IMG/VR virus record: IMGVR_UViG_3300028030_000010 | Location: 1-64,000 of that record | Strand: one strand, 5' to 3' | DNA length: 64,000 nt | DNA from: a virus | Shown: one piece after another, positions 14,260-56,084 of the stretch | Position numbering within the stretch: position 1 is the first letter of the stretch | How the letters are laid out: every line of letters begins with the position of its first letter | Made by a program: the position numbers and the translations under genes | The notes under the pieces: model-generated | Told to the model about the DNA's origin: nothing | What the model saw: only the letters and a program-made list of their open reading frames with translations | Database searches by the model: none

Positions 14260-14523
14260 TTAATCCTCGTGGTAAGTTACTTTAAATTTCAATTTGTTTC
14301 TATCTGGGATTTTTTCTACTTTATTATTAAGGGACACAAGTTTGCTTTTCATTTTTACAATTTCAAACTTACCTAACTTTCTTAAATAGATTTTATCTCC
14401 TACTTCTTTTAGAGATTTTATTTCTTCAATAAAACTATCCATTACAGATCTTACCTCTTTTTTAGTTAATCCAGTTTTCTCAGACAACATCTCAATTAAA
14501 GTTATATAATTAACTTTCTTCAT
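14260..14523 (-). CDS. HU/IHF-like DNA-binding protein
   Basis: 87 residues, the usual size of an HU or IHF subunit. The N-terminal helices (NYITLIEMLSEKTGLTKKEVRSVMDSFIEEI) and the following GDKIYLRKLGKFEI match the dimerisation core of the family, where GxFxxxxR is typical. The DNA-binding arm is present but divergent (VEKIPDRNKLKFKVTYHED). It probably bends or compacts DNA during replication or packaging. First gene of a minus-strand operon, with a promoter-like element at 14544-14549. Confidence 0.75.
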   Translation of the reverse strand: MKKVNYITLIEMLSEKTGLTKKEVRSVMDSFIEEIKSLKEVGDKIYLRKLGKFEIVKMKSKLVSLNNKVEKIPDRNKLKFKVTYHED

Positions 14524-15169: not shown

Positions 15170-16603
15170 ATGATAAAGGTTACCTCTACGTCAATATATA
15201 TTGACGATGGAAGTTATTCTTTTGAAGATGTCTATAGTTCTGTCCAAGAAAGCGCTTATGCTTATAAGGCTAAAAAATCAGGAGATAAAACTTTTTTTTT
15301 TGATTTTGATTTTTATATAGGAAAAGACACTCCTGCAATTTTAATAGATAAAAACAAAAATATAGAAATTAATGGAAGCTTATTTCAAATATATGAAGGT
15401 TCTGAATTTCAATTTGGGGAATTGAACAATAGTGAACCTATGGTTGGAGGTAGCTTTATCATAAACAACCCAGAGTTAGCTTATGGCTTTGGAAATCAAA
15501 CTAAAAATTCAAACGGAGAAACTTTATCCGGAAACTTGAAGTTGTATGGTAGCTATATAGAAATTCCTTGTTTTTGGGGTTTTTTTAATTCTCCCGAAAA
15601 GCAGAAAGTAGAAATTAAAAATTGCATCATAAAAGGATTTGGAAGAATTTCAGGAAAAGATTCTTATGTTGAAAACGTAACCTACCTTAACCCTGAAACT
15701 AAGTATGGCTCTATTTCAACAAAAGGTCAAATTAAGTATATTAAAAATGTAAATATTGTAAATGCAGATTCCGATGCTTATGCTTTATATTTTAACCCTT
15801 CTTTATCTGGTAACGCAACTTTAAATTCTATTTCTATAAAAAATTGCAATAACACCATTTATTGTGAAAAAGCCGACACGTCTACTACATTAACTTTAGT
15901 GGATTTAGCAACTGATAGTTTAAGTGTTTACTTTAAAGATTCAAATGTTAATATTGAAATAAAACACACAGTTAAGTTTTTAACAACTAAAGAAAATGTA
16001 AATGTAAAAATATACAGAAATGGAGAAATGATAGATGAACTTATTGTAGATAAAGCTGCATCTCTACCTTTAACAGAAAAAATTATAAACAACATCAATA
16101 CATCTTTTTTAAATGAATACGAGATAGTAATAAACAATTTACATAAAATCCCTTTAAAATTAAAAGAAAAGGTAACCATTGATATAGACATGTTTGAATT
16201 CCCTGTTGTTGAGAATGAAAATCAAGAAATATATCTTCTCCCTAAAAAGGAATATGAGTTAGAAGATGTGTTGGAATTTTTTGTGTCGTCTTTTTACCCA
16301 ATAGATAGTATCGAATTATGTAAAAGTAATTTTAATAAAATTGCTTCTCCTGTTCAAATAACTCAAATTTCAGAAAATTTATATAGGGTTGTTTTTTTTA
16401 TTGGTGAACTAGGAACAGAGGGAGAAAATGGAGAAAAATGGCAAGACGGTCCTTATTTGATAAAAACAAACATCAAATCAAAACAGTACCTATGCCCAAT
16501 TTATATTGCTAGACCTCAAGAGGAGGAATTTGAAGAAGTTGTAGAGGAAGTAATTCAAGAAGAAAAACCTACTATTTCCAATGGAGCTAAAATTTATTTG
16601 TAA
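15170..16603 (+). CDS. Beta-helix virion fibre/spike-type protein
   Basis: I choose the ATG at 15170, with AAAAGG upstream, over the TTG at 15167. Residues about 80-260 show the repeating short-strand pattern of a right-handed beta-helix (VEIKNCIIKGFGRI, YVENVTYLNPE, IKYIKNVNIVNADSD, LNSISIKNCNNTIYCEK), as in tailspikes and head fibres. The C-terminal third contains Ig-like beta segments and an acidic stretch (EEEFEEVVEEVIQEEKP), then ends SNGAKIYL. The last six residues GAKIYL are identical to the end of the next gene product, suggesting that both attach to the same partner. Particle fibre or spike is inferred; the receptor is unknown. Confidence 0.65.
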   Translation: MIKVTSTSIYIDDGSYSFEDVYSSVQESAYAYKAKKSGDKTFFFDFDFYIGKDTPAILIDKNKNIEINGSLFQIYEGSEFQFGELNNSEPMVGGSFIINNPELAYGFGNQTKNSNGETLSGNLKLYGSYIEIPCFWGFFNSPEKQKVEIKNCIIKGFGRISGKDSYVENVTYLNPETKYGSISTKGQIKYIKNVNIVNADSDAYALYFNPSLSGNATLNSISIKNCNNTIYCEKADTSTTLTLVDLATDSLSVYFKDSNVNIEIKHTVKFLTTKENVNVKIYRNGEMIDELIVDKAASLPLTEKIINNINTSFLNEYEIVINNLHKIPLKLKEKVTIDIDMFEFPVVENENQEIYLLPKKEYELEDVLEFFVSSFYPIDSIELCKSNFNKIASPVQITQISENLYRVVFFIGELGTEGENGEKWQDGPYLIKTNIKSKQYLCPIYIARPQEEEFEEVVEEVIQEEKPTISNGAKIYL

Positions 16604-17345: not shown

Positions 17346-17759
17346 TCATTCCACAAGAGCTTGTGTGGTAAAGTGTTTATTGCTCCAATCTATTTGAAAT
17401 TCTTCTGGATATTTTAATCCATCAATGTGTATTGTTAATTGACCTATTAACATAGTTCCTGATTTATCTATATTGCTTACCTCTATTTTTGTAATTCCAT
17501 ATTTATCAGCTATTTTATTTGCATTTTTTTCTAAATAAAAGCTAAATTTAGGAGGATTTATCACTTCTCCTAAATCTTCTATCAAAGTTGTTCCATAGCC
17601 TGGCTTTAAAGGAGGAGAGAATGTTGTTAACAATTCTTGAATAAAGTTTTTAGCTTTTACTTTAGCTCTACTTTCTTCTTTTTTTGTTTGCTGAGAGACA
17701 ACAATAGGATCTGTTGATTTTGCTATTTCCAATTTAGATTGAAAAATTTCATTGATCAT
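17346..17759 (-). CDS. Unknown protein, 137 aa
   Basis: Last gene of the minus-strand operon from 19017. AAAGG precedes the start. The N-terminal half is helical and charged; the C-terminal half is beta-rich (TMLIGQLTIHIDGLKYPEEFQIDW). A PGYG element occurs here (LKPGYGTTLIEDL) and also in the neighbouring sigma-like protein (NWNPGYGNLKTYL), which may be coincidence. Function unknown. Confidence 0.6.
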   Translation of the reverse strand: MINEIFQSKLEIAKSTDPIVVSQQTKKEESRAKVKAKNFIQELLTTFSPPLKPGYGTTLIEDLGEVINPPKFSFYLEKNANKIADKYGITKIEVSNIDKSGTMLIGQLTIHIDGLKYPEEFQIDWSNKHFTTQALVE

Positions 17760-17768
17760 ATTTAACCT

Positions 17769-18410
17769 TTACTCATAAGAATTTATAGCTTCTGCGTATT
17801 GAGATATATGGTTGTCTATTTCTTTCTTGATAGAATAAAATTTTGTTTGTTTAAAACCATATTTTTTAAACAGTTGCTCTTTTGATAGTTGTTTTAAATA
17901 CATGTCTTTAGCTATATTTCTTTTTGTAGGGTCTGGTATGCTATCTATAATTTCTTTAGGTGTAATTGAAATATTTTTTGCTTGAAGATATTCATCTGTT
18001 TCAAATTGAGCTTTTGCAACTCCTCCATATAATTGCAATAAATTTTTAGCTTTATTTTCTGTAATATTCATTTTTTTTGCTAGCCAGGTAGGATTAGGTA
18101 ATCCACCATATGTGTCTTTATAGTCATCTATAATTTTTTTAGCTTTATACATTAAAAGTTGTTGATTTTCTGGCACATAAACTGGTTGATTTTTGTAAAA
18201 TTCTCTACTCAATTGTTGCAGTTGCGAACTTAAGTATGTTTTAAGATTACCGTAACCAGGATTCCAGTTTCTTAAAGCTTTTCTAATTATTGCCTCAGCT
18301 TTTGCTCTTAACACATATTCGTTTTGATTTTGTTTAAATTTATTTACAAAATATTCTAATTGTTCGTTAGCAATTTTATTTTTTTCAGGGTCTGTAGTAA
18401 ACTCAATCAT
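17769..18410 (-). CDS. Sigma-factor-like protein (divergent)
   Basis: I place the start at the ATG ending at 18410, which has AAAGGA upstream and begins MIEFTTDPEK; an upstream in-frame ATG lacks such a site. Residues about 40-90 (IIRKALRNWNPGYGNLKTYLSSQLQQLSREF, then PVYVPEN) resemble sigma region 2 to 3.0, where a conserved FDP..G..F.TYA segment and VRxP occur. LPNPTWLAKKMNITENKAKNLL resembles the region 3 helix-turn-helix. The end (LSKEQLFKKYGFKQTKFYSIKKEIDNHI) looks like a region 4 helix-turn-helix. Region 2.1-2.2 is short and atypical. It may direct the phage or host RNA polymerase to the uniform phage promoters. Another HTH structural protein is the alternative. Confidence 0.55.
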   Translation of the reverse strand: MIEFTTDPEKNKIANEQLEYFVNKFKQNQNEYVLRAKAEAIIRKALRNWNPGYGNLKTYLSSQLQQLSREFYKNQPVYVPENQQLLMYKAKKIIDDYKDTYGGLPNPTWLAKKMNITENKAKNLLQLYGGVAKAQFETDEYLQAKNISITPKEIIDSIPDPTKRNIAKDMYLKQLSKEQLFKKYGFKQTKFYSIKKEIDNHISQYAEAINSYE

Positions 18411-24757: not shown

Positions 24758-25194
24758 AAATAGAAATAGTTTCTCTTGATAAATATGTTTTTAATGATTC
24801 TGTAAAACTTTTGCAAAGATTTTATAAAGAATTTAAAGGTGAGCTTATACATAGGATAGAAGCAGAAGAGATTTTAAAAAATCCAAACAACCAAACATAT
24901 GTTTTATTAGTAGAAAATGAAGTAAGAGGATTATATGTTTTTCAACCATTCAATGAAGTGTATATAGTTAAAGCATTTATTTTACACCCATTGGTGAGAA
25001 GAACAAAAACTGGATATAGACTTTGGAAACATATGAAAGAGAAATTAAGCAAAAAACCTGCTATAATAGGAATTATTAGAAACAATAACCTTATTAAATC
25101 TATAATCAAAAAAAGAGGCCATTACATTGGAAGCGGTCTAGACAATGAGGGGCACGCATTAGATTTTTACAACTTATCTTTTAAAGGAATGTAA
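24754..25194 (+). CDS. GNAT-family acetyltransferase-like protein
   Basis: 146 residues, a normal size for a single GNAT domain. The acetyl-CoA binding region is recognisable: VYIVKAFILHPLVRRTKTGYRLWKHM has the beta4 strand followed by the R-x-x-x-G-x-R/G-x-L loop and helix, though the usual Q/RxxGxG/A is changed to RRTKTGY. The end (AIIGIIRNNNLIKSIIKKRGH) fits motif B. The substrate is unknown. It overlaps the preceding gene by ATGA and the beta' C-terminal gene by TAATG, so it is made together with the polymerase fragment. Confidence 0.65.
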   Translation: MKIEIVSLDKYVFNDSVKLLQRFYKEFKGELIHRIEAEEILKNPNNQTYVLLVENEVRGLYVFQPFNEVYIVKAFILHPLVRRTKTGYRLWKHMKEKLSKKPAIIGIIRNNNLIKSIIKKRGHYIGSGLDNEGHALDFYNLSFKGM

Positions 25195-26960
25195 TGCAAG
25201 GAACAGCTGGAGTAATTTTATTAAATTCATTAATGCCAAAAGATATCCAATTCGACCCTAAAAAACCAATAACAAAAAAAATATACACTCAAAAACTGTC
25301 GGAGTTTGCTTCAAAATACCCTGAACTCTACAAAGAAAGAATCCATGAAATTACAGCTTTGGCAGAAAAGATGGCATTTTATTTAGGAGCAAATGTTGGT
25401 ACAAAAGACTTAAAAATAGCTGAAAAAGAAGTTGAAAAACATATAAAGGAAATTGAGAAATCATTTAACAAAGCAAAATCTGTAAAAGAAAAAAAGAAAA
25501 TTCTAATGAAAGCTTTTAATGAAGCTCAAGAAACTATAAAAAAGATGGAAGATCCTAACAATGAAATGCTTTTACAAATCAAATCTTCCGCAAGAGGTAA
25601 ACCAGCTCAATTTGCAAGAATGTCTTGGGCACCTTTTTATGCAGTAGACATGGATCAAACCCCAAAGCCTATTTTGATTAAAAACAATTTCGTTAAAGGT
25701 TTAAATCCTCAAGAATATTTTGCTGTTGCAGCACAAGGAAGATTCTCAGCCGTTCAAACAGCAAATGCAACTTCAGAACCTGGAGAGTTTGGAAAAGTAT
25801 TAGTAGCAAACACAGATGACCAGGTCATCACAATGAAAGATTGTGGCACAAAAAATGGAATTTGCATGGATCCTCAAGACCATCATATAGTTGGTAGATT
25901 TGAAGCTGGAACCAATAAACTAATTGATGAAGAGTATTGGAAAAAACTTAAAAATGATAAAAACATTAAATGTGTAAAAGTTAGAAGCCCTATAACATGT
26001 GAAGCACCAAGAGGAATATGTGCGATGTGTTATGGACTAAAGCCTGACGGTAGACTTCCATCTATAGGAGAGGAAGTAGGTATAGTAGCTGCACAAAGCA
26101 TTGGCGAACCTTTAACTCAGATGGTTTTAAGCACTAAACATAGCGTAGGAGCAAAAGAAGAAGATCCTCATAAATTGCAAGGCATGGAAGGTTTTAAAAT
26201 AGTGGTTAATTCTCCTGATAGATTTAAACAAAAAGCCCCAGTAGCACCTAGATCTGGAATCGTTACCAAAATAGAAGCATCACCTCAAGGTGGTTATCTG
26301 ATTTATATAGGTGACGCCAAGAAACCTGTACACGTAGATGCTGGTAAGAAGATTTTGGTTAAAAAGGGGGATTATGTATACAAAGGGCAACAATTATCAG
26401 AAGGAGTCGCATCGGTAAAAGATGTACTACAAACTAGAGGTCTTGGTGCTGCACGTAAACATGAAGCCGATTTATTACATGAAACATTTTTAAATTCTAC
26501 AGGTAGAGACTTGAATAAAAAACATTTTGAAGTTATTGCTAGAGGACATTTATCTTTAGGTAAAGATGAATTAGGAGATATAGCTGATGTAAATGCTGCA
26601 CTAAAAAACTACCCAAGCATAAAAATGAAAAAGATGGTTTCTCCAGAATTAGCTAACGGAAAATATTATTTAGCAGAAAGTGTAGATGTGTTTTTAAAAG
26701 GAACTCCAATTGATGATTTTGTAATAAAAACCTTACAAATGCACAATATACACCAAATATATGTCACAGAACAAAAGCCTCCTGTAAAACCTATTTACAA
26801 AACATTAGTAATGCGCCCTAACTTTAACAGAAATCTATTTGCAAAACTTAACTATAGGTATCTACAAAAAGCTATGTTAGATGAAGTAAAAAGAGGCAAA
26901 GGATTTAAAACAGAAGATATTGTTTCTGGAAGAGAAAAACATACCGCCCATAAATTATAG
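25194..26960 (+). CDS. RNA polymerase beta' subunit, C-terminal part
   Basis: 588 residues colinear with the second half of bacterial beta'. GTAGVILLNSLMPKDI matches the segment just after the usual middle of beta'. SSARGKPAQFARMSWAPF is the bridge-helix region. All four second-zinc-site cysteines are kept (DCGTKNGIC near 216, and CEAPRGICAMC near 270-280). VGIVAAQSIGEPLTQMVLSTKHSVG is the trigger loop, keeping the catalytic His near residue 315, with the loop Met replaced by Leu. The large insert seen in E. coli is absent. It must combine with the beta-beta' fusion encoded at 51771-56084. Start TAATG-coupled to the GNAT gene. Confidence 0.93.
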   Translation: MQGTAGVILLNSLMPKDIQFDPKKPITKKIYTQKLSEFASKYPELYKERIHEITALAEKMAFYLGANVGTKDLKIAEKEVEKHIKEIEKSFNKAKSVKEKKKILMKAFNEAQETIKKMEDPNNEMLLQIKSSARGKPAQFARMSWAPFYAVDMDQTPKPILIKNNFVKGLNPQEYFAVAAQGRFSAVQTANATSEPGEFGKVLVANTDDQVITMKDCGTKNGICMDPQDHHIVGRFEAGTNKLIDEEYWKKLKNDKNIKCVKVRSPITCEAPRGICAMCYGLKPDGRLPSIGEEVGIVAAQSIGEPLTQMVLSTKHSVGAKEEDPHKLQGMEGFKIVVNSPDRFKQKAPVAPRSGIVTKIEASPQGGYLIYIGDAKKPVHVDAGKKILVKKGDYVYKGQQLSEGVASVKDVLQTRGLGAARKHEADLLHETFLNSTGRDLNKKHFEVIARGHLSLGKDELGDIADVNAALKNYPSIKMKKMVSPELANGKYYLAESVDVFLKGTPIDDFVIKTLQMHNIHQIYVTEQKPPVKPIYKTLVMRPNFNRNLFAKLNYRYLQKAMLDEVKRGKGFKTEDIVSGREKHTAHKL

Positions 26961-44125: not shown

Positions 44126-44919
44126 TTTTTTTAGATTGCAATAAAACAGTACAAGTTGGGATTGATAAATCTTTTTGGGTAGATGCAAGCAATGAGTCTA
44201 ATATTGATGTGTTTTTATATTATGTAGATATGGAATTTTCTTTATTAGAGGAAATGAAAGTAGATATTCAGTATCTTGAAAATAATTTATGGAAAGGCAC
44301 AATTCCTTCCCCCACTTCCAAAGGGTTTGTAATAGGTAAAGTTATTACGGATGGCAAAAATTCATTTTTTGTTGTAAATTATGATATGTATGGTAGTTTT
44401 ATATACCAATCAGCAGGATTGAAAGAGGGGTTAAAGTTAGAATGGCTTCAATTAGGTGAAAAAGCGCAAGTGATTGATTATGGAAATCTGAAAGAAATAG
44501 GGATGGGGTTTTATGGAGGAACATTAAATAATAAAATTCCTAGTATAGTTTGTATAGATGATATATGTAATGTATTTAGAGTTAAAGAAATAGTGGATTG
44601 TTCTGATGCTCAAACAGAAGAAGAGTTGAAAGAATGTTTAAAACAAAATGAAGAATTATTGCAAAAATATTTGCTTTTAGAAAAAGAATTAGAAAAATGC
44701 AATCAAAATAAAACTATTGTAGCAGGACAACCTATAATACATGGCGCAAATATAGCTAGTTCAACTGAAATAAAACATGTAAATACCCAACAAACAAAAG
44801 AAATTCCTCAACCTTCTCCAAGAGTAGTTACACATATAAAAACTTCCCTTAAAACCTCAATAGAAACTTCAAGCACTACTAATATCTCTAATAGCCAAGT
44901 TAAAACAACTTTGAAATAA
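44122..44919 (+). CDS. Unknown tail-tip protein with coiled coil, 265 aa
   Basis: ATGA overlap with the hub gene. N-terminal beta-rich region (residues 1-150), then a short coiled coil (EELKECLKQNEELLQKYLLLEKELEKC) with regularly spaced Cys, then a Ser/Thr/Gln-rich disordered tail. Last gene of the plus-strand tail operon. Probably a baseplate or tip component; not recognised. Confidence 0.6.
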   Translation: MIFLDCNKTVQVGIDKSFWVDASNESNIDVFLYYVDMEFSLLEEMKVDIQYLENNLWKGTIPSPTSKGFVIGKVITDGKNSFFVVNYDMYGSFIYQSAGLKEGLKLEWLQLGEKAQVIDYGNLKEIGMGFYGGTLNNKIPSIVCIDDICNVFRVKEIVDCSDAQTEEELKECLKQNEELLQKYLLLEKELEKCNQNKTIVAGQPIIHGANIASSTEIKHVNTQQTKEIPQPSPRVVTHIKTSLKTSIETSSTTNISNSQVKTTLK

Positions 44920-44920
44920 A

Positions 44921-44941
44921 ACTTATAATTGTGTTATATAT
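44921..44941 (+). promoter_or_regulatory. Promoter candidates for the structured RNA
   Basis: Two -10-like elements occur: TATAAT at 44924-44929 and TATATA at 44935-44940 preceded by TG at 44932-44933. Transcription would begin near 44936-44947, at the base of the long stem that starts at 44945. Confidence 0.5.
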
Positions 44942-44996
44942 TTAAGTAGTTGAGTCGCCAAGGAGGGCTTCTGCCCTAAAAAATAAAAGGTTTTTT

Positions 44997-45107
44997 ATGA
45001 GAATTGTTATTTTTTTATTAAAATTTTTACCCCTCTTTGCAGGGGAGGCGGCTCAACTGCTAATCATAAAGGCGATTAGGATTATAAGCGCAATTAAGCG
45101 CTCTTGA
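44997..45107 (+). CDS. Hydrophobic mini-protein, 36 aa (tentative)
   Basis: ATG with AAAGG six bases upstream, product MRIVIFLLKFLPLFAG... ending ISAIKRS. A hydrophobic first half followed by an amphipathic basic helix gives the look of a type I toxin or other membrane peptide. The whole reading frame lies inside the structured RNA, whose 5' end pairs into the coding region; this could hold translation in check, as in known toxin mRNAs whose ends pair. The frame may instead be chance within a non-coding RNA. Confidence 0.35.
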   Translation: MRIVIFLLKFLPLFAGEAAQLLIIKAIRIISAIKRS

Positions 45108-45123
45108 TCGCTTTTCTTTTTTT
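45072..45123 (+). terminator. Intrinsic terminator ending the RNA
   Basis: Nested pairs GCGAT/ATCGC (45072-45076 with 45107-45111) and AGCGC/GCGCT (45087-45091 with 45098-45102) are followed by TTTTCTTTTTTT. It lies between convergent gene sets. Confidence 0.65.
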
Positions 45124-45169
45124 AGATTATATTTATACATAAGGAGAAAAAGAGGAGGGTGTCAAGAAA

Positions 45170-45832
45170 TTATTGTCCTTCTTGATCTTTTTTATTTTTT
45201 GCGTAAAGATATGCTCCTGCTCCTACAGGAATTCCATAAGCAACACCAGATGCTGCAACGCCTTTTCCTAATTGTTTCCAATCTACATTAAGTTTATCAC
45301 CTTCTTTTTTAAATGCTCCTCTGATGCCTCTTAACATGTAAGCATCTTTTGTCCCTTGCCAACCTTTGCTTAAAATTTCTTTAATTTTATTAGCTGCCTC
45401 AGCTCCTTCTTTTGCAGCTTCTTCTTTTGCTCCAGCTTCTTTTGCTAGTTCAGGATATGCTGATGCGAAAATATAATCAACATCTTGTTGATCAAATCCT
45501 AAAGCTTCTCCAATTCCATAAACTTGTTCTGGTTCTAATGCTCCAGCTGCAAATAAATCAACCGCTGCTGCAACTTTTACAAGTGGTAAAGTGTTTTCAT
45601 CAGTAACCACAGAAGCTAATTTTTGAAGCTCATCCTCAGCCGCTTCTTTCTCTAAATCAGCAGCTCCAAAAAGATTTGCTCCTAAAACAATTTCATCTGG
45701 ATGAATGCCTTGCTCAGCTGCAAACGCAATTACTTCTTCAGGGTTGTATCCTTCATTAATAGCCTCAATTGCTGCTGCAATTTTTTCTAATCTTGAGCTT
45801 TCTTGTGAAGCTAATTTAGTTAAAACGTTCAT
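45170..45832 (-). CDS. K-x-A motif-rich protein with C-terminal membrane segment
   Basis: 220 residues. Motifs LTKLASQ, LEKIAAA, LEKEAAE, LQKLASV, LVKVAAA and LAKEAGA recur every 25-40 residues. Two related segments (YNPEEVIAFAAEQGIHPDEIVLGA and LEPEQVYGIGEALGFDQQDVDYIF) suggest an internal duplication. The C-terminus has a Gly/Ala membrane-like stretch (GVAASGVAYGIPVGAGAYLY) and a charged end. Own promoter-like element at 45870. Function unknown. Confidence 0.7.
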   Translation of the reverse strand: MNVLTKLASQESSRLEKIAAAIEAINEGYNPEEVIAFAAEQGIHPDEIVLGANLFGAADLEKEAAEDELQKLASVVTDENTLPLVKVAAAVDLFAAGALEPEQVYGIGEALGFDQQDVDYIFASAYPELAKEAGAKEEAAKEGAEAANKIKEILSKGWQGTKDAYMLRGIRGAFKKEGDKLNVDWKQLGKGVAASGVAYGIPVGAGAYLYAKNKKDQEGQ

Positions 45833-51214: not shown

Positions 51215-51784
51215 ATGAATGAAAAATTTTTAAATGCGTATAAAAACTTAATTGGTGCTGAAGGCGGTTATGTGGATAGACCTGAAGATGCAGGAGGAGA
51301 AACTTATAAAGGTATATCTAGAAAGTTTCATCCTGATTGGGAAGGCTGGACAATTATAGATAAATACAAAGATAAACCAGATTTTAAAAGCAAAATAAAA
51401 AAAGATAAAGAATTGGAAAAACTGGTGCAAAAATTTTATTATGAAAATTACTGGGAAAAATTTAATGGCGACAAACTTCCTTATTTAATCGCTGAAGAAC
51501 TGCTAGAACAAAGCGTAGTTTTAGGGACATGGAAAACAGCTGGAAAAAATCTTCAGAAAGCTCTTAACTTATTAAATTTAAACAATAAATTATTCTCAGA
51601 TCTAATTGAAGATGGAATTGTAGGGCCTAAAACATTAGCAGCAGTAAATAAAGTAAATCAAAGAAGATTGTTGACTGTATTAAATGGATTAGAATTTTGT
51701 AGGTTTAAAGAAAGCATGGAAAAAAGACCTATAAATGAAATATTTAGGGGATGGTTTGATAGGGTAAACTTTATTCTAAAATAA
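51215..51784 (+). CDS. Endolysin, GH108-type muramidase
   Basis: 189 residues. N-terminal GAEGGYVDRPEDAGGETYKGIS is the signature of glycoside hydrolase family 108, with the catalytic Glu in EGGY and the conserved D.GG.T..GI. The C-terminal part (GIVGPKTLAAVNKVN) is the peptidoglycan-binding end of the family. It cuts the glycan chain of the cell wall at lysis. It has no signal peptide, so release depends on the holin encoded divergently. Its 3' end overlaps the convergent polymerase gene by 14 bases. Confidence 0.9.
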   Translation: MNEKFLNAYKNLIGAEGGYVDRPEDAGGETYKGISRKFHPDWEGWTIIDKYKDKPDFKSKIKKDKELEKLVQKFYYENYWEKFNGDKLPYLIAEELLEQSVVLGTWKTAGKNLQKALNLLNLNNKLFSDLIEDGIVGPKTLAAVNKVNQRRLLTVLNGLEFCRFKESMEKRPINEIFRGWFDRVNFILK

Positions 51785-54700
51785 CAGGGTCGTTATAATT
51801 TAACTTCCCTTCTCTTATTAGTTTTTTTATTTCAGCTATACTGTGAACTTTTATAGGTTTTTTCTTTGATGGAATAGAAGCTTTATACGCCCCTATAACA
51901 GCATCCTGATCTGTTATCATTAGCAAGTCTTTATGAGTAAGCGTTCCTTGATCAGTGAACAATTGCTTAGAAGCAAGCATTTTTTCTTTTACATCTTTTA
52001 TACCTTCAGGAGTTACTGGTACATGCACAGCAATTTGGTCACCATCATAGTCAGCTGCCAAAGCCCTTTCTACCATTGGAGGTAATGATATAGAGTGACC
52101 AGGAACAAATTTTGGATATGCACCAATAAGGTTATGTTTCCATAAAGATGGAGCCCTGTTGTAGACTACAGGTATTTCTTTACCTAATCTGTGTAAAAGC
52201 TTGATTACTTTTTCATCCTTATTTTTGATCATTTCTTTTATTTGCAATTGAGTGTATCCCATTTTAGCCATTTCTCTACTAATGTGAGGCTCATACATTT
52301 TAAGCCCCATTTCTTCTGGTAACTCTATTTCATCTAATTTTAAATCCCCTCTTGAGGGTGTAATTACAGCCCTTCCTGACATAAATTGATTTTTTCTAAG
52401 CAACTGTTCTTGAACAAATGAGTCTTTCGGTCTATTTCCTCCTAAAACATCTAGTATCCCTTTTACTTGCTTATTTGCAATTGCTGGATTGTTACTAGGA
52501 TACAATCCATACATAGCGCCTATAGCATGTTGCAGAGAAAGTTTTAGATCATTTATTGTTTTTTTAGATAATTTGTTTTGTTTTGCTTCTTTTAAAGTGT
52601 TGTTTAAATTAATTATTTCTTGATAATGTAGATTTAGGTCTGAAACTCCATATTTACCGGTATGGTCTTTGATAATTGGCCTATAAACAGGCGGAATTAC
52701 TGGAACTGTTTTTAATACAGCTACATCTTTTAGAGATAAGTTGTTGTTTTTTAGTTTTTCTAAAAACTTAATGATTTTTAAATTTCTATCTTTTAGTTGC
52801 TCATTTGATGTTTTTTTATTTTCATCTTTCAGTTTTTTTATTTCTTTATTTATATCTATAGCAGATAATTTCTTAATTATACTATCTACACCATCTTCAA
52901 CCATCATTTCTTTTAATTTTTTTTCAGGGATACCTAACAAGAAAGCAATTTCATATGAATAAATTGGGTTAATTAATGGTTCGTTTAATTTTATATGAGC
53001 ATACCTATTACCTAATTCTCCGAAAATAGAAGGATCAAAAAGCCCTCCTTTTCTAGGAGAACCATCAGTTGCGTTTATAGTTTCTGCACTTTTAACTTCT
53101 TTAGGCCCCTTTTTGATAATATCCTTATCTGTTGCGGGAACCAGATTGAAGCTATTTGGGTCATCTTCAACATTTACATTTAGTTGACTTAATAGAGCTT
53201 TAAATTTTTCATAGGCAAAATTTTCAGCCGGTTTAGGTAGTGGTTGTCCTTTTCTAAAGGCTTCAAACCAAGCATCATTTTTTTGGCCTTTTATTTTTCT
53301 AGCCTCTCTTAGTAAATCTTTCGCATTATGTGCTAATAACGCATTTATTTCCATATTTGAAAAAGATGAAGCCGAAGTTTTGCCACCTTTTGCTGGTTGT
53401 TCATTAATATTAACCCTATCAGTAGCAGTAGCACTCATTCCAGATTCAGAATCTTTAAAAAGCTTATAAGTGTATGGTTCTCCTACAAAAACTTTTTGAG
53501 GAAAAGGTTTGCCTGTTTCTGGATTGATTAGCGTTTCATATTGTTCAACCCCATGTTTCTTAGCTTCTTCCTCTGCAAATTTTAAATTATCAGTTAAAGA
53601 ATATTGATCTAGCACATAAGATTTGTCAGTTTTTTTTCCTACTTTACCTAGAGTTGCTTCTATTAATTGCCCAGGATTGATCCTTGAAATAACCCCAGCA
53701 GATGTAACTATAATATGTACTGGTTCACCTTTCTCATTTTTTGGCATTTTATCATCAGGTAAAATCAAAGAAATAGAACCTTTGTTACCATATCTCCCTG
53801 ATAACTTGTCACCTATTTGGGCCTTAGATTTTGTTTTTACAAAAACCCTAATATTGTTCCCTGATTTGTTTACAGACACCACTTTACCATCATGATGATG
53901 AGTCCATGTTTCTAATTTCAATTTGTATGGTTTAAATAAAGTTTTTTCTAAAGAAGTTATAGGTTTATCTTTATTTACGACTAATTTAATCACTAAAGGT
54001 TCATTAAATTTAACGGTTGCGCCTTTTTTTATAACTCCGTGCTCATCATACTTTGATAAATCATATTTAGATAAAGTAAGAGGAAATAAAGCCTTAGCCT
54101 TTTTTAAATCTAATACATCATCTCTATCTATATGAATTTCTTCTTTATACATATGAAGAGAAGTTAAGTTTTTGGCTGCAGTTTCAGATACAATGATTGC
54201 ATCATTTCTGTTGCCAGGCATCGACATCCAAGCTGTTCTTAAATGCACTCCATTTGCAAAATAACCATCTTTAGCATAGTTACTTTCTGCTATCACTTCT
54301 CCTTTTTTTACTCTATCTCCTACCTTAACCTTAGGCTCCATAGATATGTATGTTTTTCTAGCTAATGGAAGGTCTTTTATGTATTTAATTTTATGACCAT
54401 CTATTTGAATGTAATCATCAGTTATTTTTTCAACTTTACCAGAAACAGGACTTTTCACAACTTGGTTTGTTTTTTCTGCTATTTTTTTATAAAAATCTTC
54501 ATTTTTATCTTTTGTTCTAACAATTGGAGCTTCTCTATGTTCTAGCGATAAAGCTTGTTGAGCGTGCTTTTGAGCCATTGTAGCTCTCATGCCATCCATT
54601 GAATTAATAAGAGGCAATGTTTTTGTTGATGAAGTGTGTATATCGCTTGAGCTTTCTATCGCATAATCTACATCTTTTAGAGACTTTACTGTATATTCTT

Positions 54701-56084
54701 TTTCTCCATCTCTAATTGGAATTCCTTCTTTTTTAGCTCTCTCTTTTGATGCAGGATAAGCTACTTTTTTGTTCCACAATTCTTTTATTGTTTTTATTTC
54801 TTTTTTTCCTGTTTTTACATTTAAAACTTCTATTGCAGGCTCTCCATTTTCATCAACATATGCATTATTTGTTACTGCCAATGTAATCCCTGTCTTTGCT
54901 CCTTCCGGAGACACAACTGGGTCAATAAAACCTAATTGAGAAGAATGAATTGCTTTATCATCTTCTGTTAAAGCTCTATCTGTTTCTATTCCACCTTCTC
55001 CTAAAGGAGTTAACAATTTTGTTGCCATATGTGTTTGAATAGGGTTGTATTCTTCTGGCATTCTGGATATCTTTGAAACAGTTAAAAAACTTTTTAGTGT
55101 ATCAGTTAAATAATTGTGATTAAATACATCATTTAACGAATTAAGTGCTGGATTGTTTAATTTTTGTTTTATTTTAAAAATTTCTTTTACTGAATTTTTT
55201 GCAAAATATTCAGGCATAAGATGTATAGCGTTTAACACTTTTCTATTAGCTAAGTTGTTTTTCTGTTTTAAATCTACTTCTTCTCCTCTGTAAGCTTTCA
55301 ATATTTGCTTAATGTTTGCGAAAATCAATTCGGGAGTTAATTTGCTTGTCTCAACTCCAAAGTTTCTTTTGTTAACATCTGGGTCCAATTCCATATGATC
55401 AAAAATATACTTTATCTGTTCTGTTAATGGCTTTTGTTTTATATCATTTGGCAAAGAGTATGATTTTTTTATAAATTTTTCTAAATCAGTTGGATTTGTT
55501 TTATTTATATTGATTTCATATAGCTTTTTCCCTAATTTTCTTTTAATTTCTTCATCAGAAACACCTAACGCTTTCAATATGCTAACAACAGACACATTAG
55601 AATTTCCTATGTTAAAATAAATTACACCAGTATCTGGGTTAAGTGTTATTTTGAATTGTCTGTTTCCTATTGGATTAACTATTGTAACAATTTCTCCATT
55701 TTTTCTTTCGAACAAATAAGTACCAGGTTTTAATCTTTGCTGATTAGGTATAGCATACGAATTCCCATCTATTATGAAAGTTTCTTTAGGTGAGAATTTA
55801 GGAACTTTAGCTATCAAAATGTTTTTTTTACATTCTATTTTTTTATTATCCTTTTTTCTAATTAAACAAACATCTCCTCTAATTTCATTAAATAAACTTT
55901 TGCCTTTTAAAATAGCATTCTTAACATCTTCTAAGTCCACTTCTTTTTGTATTCCTTTAACATTGGAAACTTCTATTTTGTAAAAGTTCCCTTCTATGGG
56001 AAAGGTTTTTTCAACTTCCTTAACAACATTATTTAATATGTGTTTATCAATTTTTTCTGGAGAATCATCTATTTTGTAAAACAT
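51771..56084 (-). CDS. RNA polymerase beta subunit fused to N-terminal beta'
   Basis: 1437 residues. Residues about 1-970 are a complete bacterial-type beta: the GFIDPVVSPEGAKTGITLAV segment, NSMDGMRATMAQKHAQQAL, PGNRNDAIIVSE near 623, GRYGNKG near 761, and GGKTSASSFSNMEINALLAH near the end of beta. From about 980, LVPATDKDI and GGLFDPSIFG open beta'. The first zinc finger is missing. The catalytic metal motif is AADYDGDQIAVHVP near 1340 (canonical NADFDGDQ). It ends where the other phage chain (25194-26960) begins. TAGGAG precedes the start. No alpha or omega gene is seen. Helicobacter has a natural beta-beta' fusion, but there beta' is complete. Confidence 0.95.
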   Translation of the reverse strand: MFYKIDDSPEKIDKHILNNVVKEVEKTFPIEGNFYKIEVSNVKGIQKEVDLEDVKNAILKGKSLFNEIRGDVCLIRKKDNKKIECKKNILIAKVPKFSPKETFIIDGNSYAIPNQQRLKPGTYLFERKNGEIVTIVNPIGNRQFKITLNPDTGVIYFNIGNSNVSVVSILKALGVSDEEIKRKLGKKLYEININKTNPTDLEKFIKKSYSLPNDIKQKPLTEQIKYIFDHMELDPDVNKRNFGVETSKLTPELIFANIKQILKAYRGEEVDLKQKNNLANRKVLNAIHLMPEYFAKNSVKEIFKIKQKLNNPALNSLNDVFNHNYLTDTLKSFLTVSKISRMPEEYNPIQTHMATKLLTPLGEGGIETDRALTEDDKAIHSSQLGFIDPVVSPEGAKTGITLAVTNNAYVDENGEPAIEVLNVKTGKKEIKTIKELWNKKVAYPASKERAKKEGIPIRDGEKEYTVKSLKDVDYAIESSSDIHTSSTKTLPLINSMDGMRATMAQKHAQQALSLEHREAPIVRTKDKNEDFYKKIAEKTNQVVKSPVSGKVEKITDDYIQIDGHKIKYIKDLPLARKTYISMEPKVKVGDRVKKGEVIAESNYAKDGYFANGVHLRTAWMSMPGNRNDAIIVSETAAKNLTSLHMYKEEIHIDRDDVLDLKKAKALFPLTLSKYDLSKYDEHGVIKKGATVKFNEPLVIKLVVNKDKPITSLEKTLFKPYKLKLETWTHHHDGKVVSVNKSGNNIRVFVKTKSKAQIGDKLSGRYGNKGSISLILPDDKMPKNEKGEPVHIIVTSAGVISRINPGQLIEATLGKVGKKTDKSYVLDQYSLTDNLKFAEEEAKKHGVEQYETLINPETGKPFPQKVFVGEPYTYKLFKDSESGMSATATDRVNINEQPAKGGKTSASSFSNMEINALLAHNAKDLLREARKIKGQKNDAWFEAFRKGQPLPKPAENFAYEKFKALLSQLNVNVEDDPNSFNLVPATDKDIIKKGPKEVKSAETINATDGSPRKGGLFDPSIFGELGNRYAHIKLNEPLINPIYSYEIAFLLGIPEKKLKEMMVEDGVDSIIKKLSAIDINKEIKKLKDENKKTSNEQLKDRNLKIIKFLEKLKNNNLSLKDVAVLKTVPVIPPVYRPIIKDHTGKYGVSDLNLHYQEIINLNNTLKEAKQNKLSKKTINDLKLSLQHAIGAMYGLYPSNNPAIANKQVKGILDVLGGNRPKDSFVQEQLLRKNQFMSGRAVITPSRGDLKLDEIELPEEMGLKMYEPHISREMAKMGYTQLQIKEMIKNKDEKVIKLLHRLGKEIPVVYNRAPSLWKHNLIGAYPKFVPGHSISLPPMVERALAADYDGDQIAVHVPVTPEGIKDVKEKMLASKQLFTDQGTLTHKDLLMITDQDAVIGAYKASIPSKKKPIKVHSIAEIKKLIREGKLNYNDPVILE

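Follow-up and report, generated by a model that had tools for sequence, protein, structure and literature searches.

Positions 44921-45123 of the window (the whole 64,000-nt stretch of DNA that was analysed, part of a 76,440-base virus record) most likely encode a small, structured mRNA that specifies a membrane peptide; the layout of this mRNA was conserved in the one close relative that the searches returned, the 161-kb viral contig L003. That a conserved structured transcript exists at this locus is considered very probable, and the mini-ORF that it carries is probably translated. The further step, to a silenced peptide that is membrane-active and toxin-like, falls a little short of an even chance. 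The locus had been presented in a preliminary description as either a silenced membrane peptide mRNA or a non-coding RNA. The results tilted this choice towards coding because a Shine-Dalgarno (SD) sequence, a start codon and a hydrophobic cationic ORF recur in L003 though the sequence does not; silencing by pairing of the two ends was not supported.

Setting and folding of the locus

The tail operon (+ strand) ends at 44919 and a convergent gene lies on the 3' side of the locus (45170-45832, - strand). Other genes in the window encode a holin-like protein, a glycosyl hydrolase 108 endolysin and a two-piece multi-subunit RNA polymerase. The structured locus adjoins the end of the tail operon directly, with no intervening terminator, and the holin and endolysin genes are about 6 kb away. 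The structured RNA may be read through from the upstream operon. The split of the RNA polymerase is unusual: beta is fused to the N-terminal part of beta' (window 51771-56084, - strand), and the C-terminal part of beta' is encoded separately, about 25 kb away (window 25194-26960, + strand).

The fold energy of 44921-45123 (+ strand) was -72.2 kcal/mol, against -42.9 +/- 4.1 kcal/mol for 200 shuffles (z -7.2). The opposite strand gave a z of -4.8. For the gap 44920-45169, z was -8.7 in the sense and -5.4 in the antisense orientation, and this gap shared the lowest z with one other among 102 intergenic gaps (110-500 bases) from three phage records, the window's own and two others. The folding of the proposed compact RNA is thus far beyond chance.

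The closing stem (5' arm 44945-44959, 3' arm 45047-45061, + strand) is formed by 15 consecutive pairs, the length given in the preliminary description. Thirteen are Watson-Crick and two are U-G on the sense strand. The U-G pairs become A-C mismatches on the other strand, so the pairing fits a + strand RNA. The two inner hairpins expected were present on the same strand: a GC hairpin, H1 (AGGGC TTCT GCCCT, 44964-44977), whose position in L003 is taken by another GC hairpin, and H2 (CCCCT...AGGGG, 45029-45044), part of the fold in the window and missing from L003. The outer terminator was also found (45067-45123, + strand), with a hairpin at 45067-45114 followed by a T-run. Its 3' arm contains the TGA stop of the ORF. 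The stretch of about 180 bases had been called GC-rich, which holds for the stems but not elsewhere.

Promoter region and 5' end

The promoter claimed in front of the RNA has plausible candidates in the region 44924-44945 (+ strand), but they are ambiguous: a TATAAT (44924-44929), to which the promoter scan assigned a weak -35, stands beside a TGTTATATAT box (44932-44941). The 5' end of the RNA is predicted at about 44936 or 44946. The window locus and L003 share the TGTTATATAT box, and in both it precedes the closing stem by a similar short interval. With two mismatches allowed, the TGTTATATAWATA box was not enriched in the window, and the box therefore counts as a clue, not as proof of a promoter class. 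Promoter-boxed transcripts that start with a stem were found elsewhere too in both phages; none had an SD-led ORF inside the closing stem.

A second TGTTATATATATA-boxed structured RNA was observed at another convergent junction (L006:7307-7420, record bases 70307-70420, beyond the window). A hydrophobic ORF of 34 aa overlaps it, and no clear SD precedes this ORF. In L003, a further TGTTATATAAATA box (17750-17990, - strand) precedes a structured RNA that carries a 47-aa ORF led by AAGGAG, MYKFKIGRYISAEKFKSADAARRAAAKWVSTVVSTAIPISAISVFRV; the matching gap in the window measures only 86 bases.

Mini-ORF and its peptide

An ORF of 36 aa, MRIVIFLLKFLPLFAGEAAQLLIIKAIRIISAIKRS, is present at 44997-45107 (+ strand). 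It had been placed inside the structure, but it is not wholly enclosed by the closing stem: it crosses the 3' arm at about codons 17-22 (approximately E17-L22) and ends in the 3' arm of the terminator. The SD AAAGG (44986-44990, + strand) lies 6 nt before the ATG and is locally paired with a U-run at about 45020-45028. These phages most often place AAAGG 6-7 nt ahead of the ATG, and a 6-nt spacing ranks among the most frequent in the genes of both.

The window peptide is hydrophobic with a net charge of +5, and its L003 counterpart (27 aa, MKKKFFLTIFNYIKVSVMVVVLERWRR) has a net charge of +6. The maximum hydropathy over 17 residues was 1.93 and 2.05, respectively, and both C-termini are basic (KRS and RWRR). 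Membrane-associated type I toxins have comparable hydropathy, charge and basic C-termini (PMC8309996). Judged by sequence, both peptides resemble the products of type I systems, which are hydrophobic, usually cationic membrane peptides of less than 60 aa. The amphipathicity of the two peptides was not above that of their own shuffles. No family match of the peptides or the RNA was found in Rfam, Pfam, NCBIfam, the PDB or by phage tblastn.

In shuffles that kept dinucleotides, an ORF of at least 25 codons arose in about 13%, such an ORF with an SD in 0.5-0.7%, and the combination of SD, ORF and hydrophobic stretch in 0.05% (about 0.0005) for each locus; the criteria of the shuffles and of the layout scan were fixed after both loci had been seen, so these figures are a measure of specificity and should not be taken as formal P values.

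The syntenic locus in L003

L003 was found through its RNA polymerase protein (71% identity over the polymerase), and its synteny extends over almost all of the window record. The proteins that flank the junction are 36% and 60% identical to those of the window. The DNA of the window locus showed no similarity to the L003 junction; the contig gave only short AT-rich matches, at other places. The layout of L003 on the corresponding strand of this convergent junction matches that of the window locus. The order is TGTTATATATATA, a long stem (GGCAACCATCATTACAG/CTGTAATGGTGGTTG, 17 bp with GU allowed), a GC hairpin, AAAGG, 6 nt, ATG, an ORF of 27 aa and a terminator. The hydrophobic, cationic ORF crosses the 3' arm of the stem and its stop codon sits in the loop of the GC-rich terminator. 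The L003 locus folded with a z of -6.3 to -6.6, more strongly than the opposite strand.

The layout was kept while the sequence turned over between the two loci. Conservation of pairing in relatives had been named beforehand as a test of the structure, and the pairing was kept in one relative, L003. This conservation rests on two genomes whose locus sequences are unalignable, and the two examples fit either common ancestry or separate acquisition of both RNAs.

Other folded elements were seen in these phages. About 1 kb of GC-rich, strongly folded and apparently non-coding sequence (L011:14300-15340, - strand) lies beside six tRNA genes of the L003 phage. It gave no Rfam match at the gathering threshold and could be a large phage non-coding RNA. 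A leader element made of a CCA..GGTGGGTT(C/T) hairpin, then A-rich sequence and AAAGGAG, is repeated at L011:15590-15690, 16390-16590 and about 14300-14350 (- strand), and two of the copies immediately precede a gene. In the window's record, in-frame GACCGTTTTGGTCAT-type repeats inside a gene (NGHDQNGNDRNGHDQNG; L006:10380-10600, record 73380-73600) cause both strands to fold strongly, and the L003 phage has a similar repeat near 155.8-156.0 kb.

Searches for further relatives

Both strands were scanned for an SD-led hydrophobic ORF of 22-65 codons inside a stem of at least 12 bp. Exactly two loci, those of the window and L003, were returned from five records (482 kb), and none from ten shuffles of the two genomes. 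When the scan was relaxed, the five records still gave only these two loci. The relaxed settings also gave nine weak matches in 684 kb from four more phages whose RNA polymerases are distantly related (Salmonella phage Arash, Vibrio phage D69, Yersinia phage YerA41 and Cobetia phage Carin-5). The best of these, in Arash, was rejected; it sits in an operon beside annotated small genes. A profile search of the four phages, run without a positive control, found no homologue of the flanking protein.

The locus gave no credible match in Rfam at gathering or relaxed thresholds, and only chance-level matches in a nucleotide search against known phages. Direct protein searches of the viral collection with both window flanking proteins returned nothing. 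The RNA polymerase query also found a distant phage contig (L004). Profile searches and searches with a large-terminase-like protein added only two sequences, a partial copy of the L003 phage (99.997% identical) and a distant fragment of 24.5 kb without the flanking genes. Four HEARO RNAs (L017:740-948, L021:5506-5734, L022:14324-14548 and L023:14840-15049) and a tmRNA match (L022:876-948) were noted in L004. The shared layout and the specificity of the scan for two loci indicate that the locus is probably a conserved structured small mRNA.

Access to the start site

The cost of opening the SD-ATG region, a thermodynamic prediction on AT-rich sequence, was 5.9 kcal/mol in the full window RNA, 6.0 kcal/mol without the 5' arm and 5.9 kcal/mol without the terminator. 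According to these energies, a U-rich local helix keeps the start region closed with or without the closing stem. Early in transcription it is predicted to be more open (1.9-2.6 kcal/mol). In L003 the predicted cost was 3.3 kcal/mol for the full RNA, 2.5 kcal/mol without the 5' arm and 3.3 kcal/mol without the terminator, the SD being paired with a CCUUU that lies upstream. In nascent L003 RNA the 5' arm is predicted to pair with the start region, including the start codon (8.7 kcal/mol), until the complete closing stem brings the cost down to 3.3 kcal/mol.

The costs with and without the closing stem indicate that pairing of the ends does not hide the start site. The silencing by paired ends put forward at the outset was not retained, the window cost being unchanged by removal of the 5' arm. 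More likely, the closing stem would protect the RNA and close the domain, and in L003 it would also end the nascent block.

A consensus scan, which phage-type promoters could escape, detected no minus-strand promoter in window 44800-45300 or L003 21250-21700. No antisense RNA antitoxin was found at either locus by this weak scan, and the locus was therefore not classed as a type I system.

Comparison with known systems

The locus was compared with aapA/IsoA of Helicobacter pylori (PMC6733600). Common to both are a short stable mRNA, paired 5' and 3' regions, a start site in hairpins and a membrane peptide of about 30 aa with a basic C-terminus. A long-distance interaction between the 5' and 3' regions was found at both loci (15 bp in the window, 17 bp in L003). 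Occlusion of the SD by this interaction, with opening upon truncation, was seen in neither the window nor L003. Blocking of the start site in the nascent RNA is predicted in L003 only, where the helix recalls aapA3, for which metastable hairpins are known (PMC6733600); in the window the early nascent site is largely open. The locus differs from aapA/IsoA in that no antisense RNA was found, the SD lies outside the long-distance stem, the ORF extends across the 3' arm and into the terminator, and the element is phage-borne. No peptide or RNA homology with aapA/IsoA was found in the libraries searched, which may hold no usable AapA model.

A folded inactive mRNA, a small membrane peptide and a phage-borne example are features of hok/Sok, including the prophage hokW-sokW (PMC8621323). 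In contrast with hok/Sok, no overlapping leader ORF or Sok-like RNA was identified and the peptide is unrelated. The sense strand of the window locus has only one ORF of at least 20 aa, hence no hok-type leader frame, and neither peptide matched the Hok family in Pfam or NCBIfam. The timP/TimR system (PMC11228461) also combines a structured message, a sequestered start site and a small membrane peptide, toxic in timP, and timP was first annotated as a non-coding RNA (PMC11228461). It differs in that no trans-encoded antitoxin and no homology were found here. More generally, phage small RNAs and structured 5' leaders share a promoter-boxed transcript beginning with a stem; those in these two phages differ by the SD-led ORF, which they do not have inside the closing stem.

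Interpretation

Overall, the locus is best read, tentatively, as a type-I-toxin-like silenced membrane-peptide mRNA, a resemblance and not a proof. A short mRNA of about 180 nt would be made from its own promoter. The long stem, a predicted pairing in two phages, would lock the 5' end to the segment just before the terminator. The hydrophobic, cationic peptide (36 or 27 aa) would be encoded with its start site in weak local helices. The folded RNA may be stable and poorly translated, and the peptide would be made once the fold has changed, be it through processing, through refolding or because a repressor is lost. The peptide would then insert into the inner membrane, like type I toxins. Its likely purpose would be a membrane effect on the infected host, such as helping lysis, host arrest or excluding other phages.

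A translated membrane peptide that is not a toxin, made late for accessory lysis, superinfection exclusion or virion assembly, with a fold that serves message stability only, is a somewhat unlikely alternative. The place at the end of the tail operon, about 6 kb from the holin and endolysin genes, the recurrence of SD and ORF in L003 and a start-site access independent of the closing stem in the window are all consistent with it, and a prophage type I toxin that aids lysis and phage release, hokW, is known (PMC8621323). Strong folding through the coding region would, however, be unusual for a freely translated gene. The toxin-message reading itself is weakened by the fact that T-rich sequence favours hydrophobic codons. 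It is quite unlikely that the ORF is incidental and the RNA non-coding (regulatory, a sponge or a stable 3'-UTR product of the tail operon), even though the compact closed structure has its own promoter-like box and terminator, the tail operon lies immediately upstream with no terminator between, and another structured RNA of the same record has a promoter box but no SD-led ORF (L006:7307-7420). An SD, a 6-nt spacing, an ATG and a hydrophobic cationic ORF are placed together in two sequence-unrelated RNAs, at a chance of about 0.0005 each by the specificity figures above, which argues against this alternative.

Terminators are frequent at convergent junctions, and chance or ordinary bidirectional termination might be invoked. 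This explanation, already disfavoured, is very improbable: in L003 a separate terminator-like hairpin lies at the stop codon of the convergent gene, the closing stems of 15-17 bp enclose about 85-90 nt and are not terminators, and the gap-fold and layout scans were specific genome-wide.

A stronger form of the type-I-like reading is unlikely. The two RNAs would then belong to a phage-specific, self-contained class of mRNA in which the closing stem, partly encoded by the ORF, encloses a membrane-peptide gene in a stable, protected domain. Layout would be strict and sequence would turn over, and RNA refolding would be the sole control, type-I-like but with no antisense antitoxin.

Plasmids, prophages and bacterial chromosomes are known to carry silenced small-peptide messages. 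Should the peptide be made and prove membrane-active, phages that encode an RNA polymerase would carry such messages, apparently without an antisense RNA. Elements of this kind can escape sequence searches because only their layout is kept, and a layout scan like the one used here could reveal more of them.
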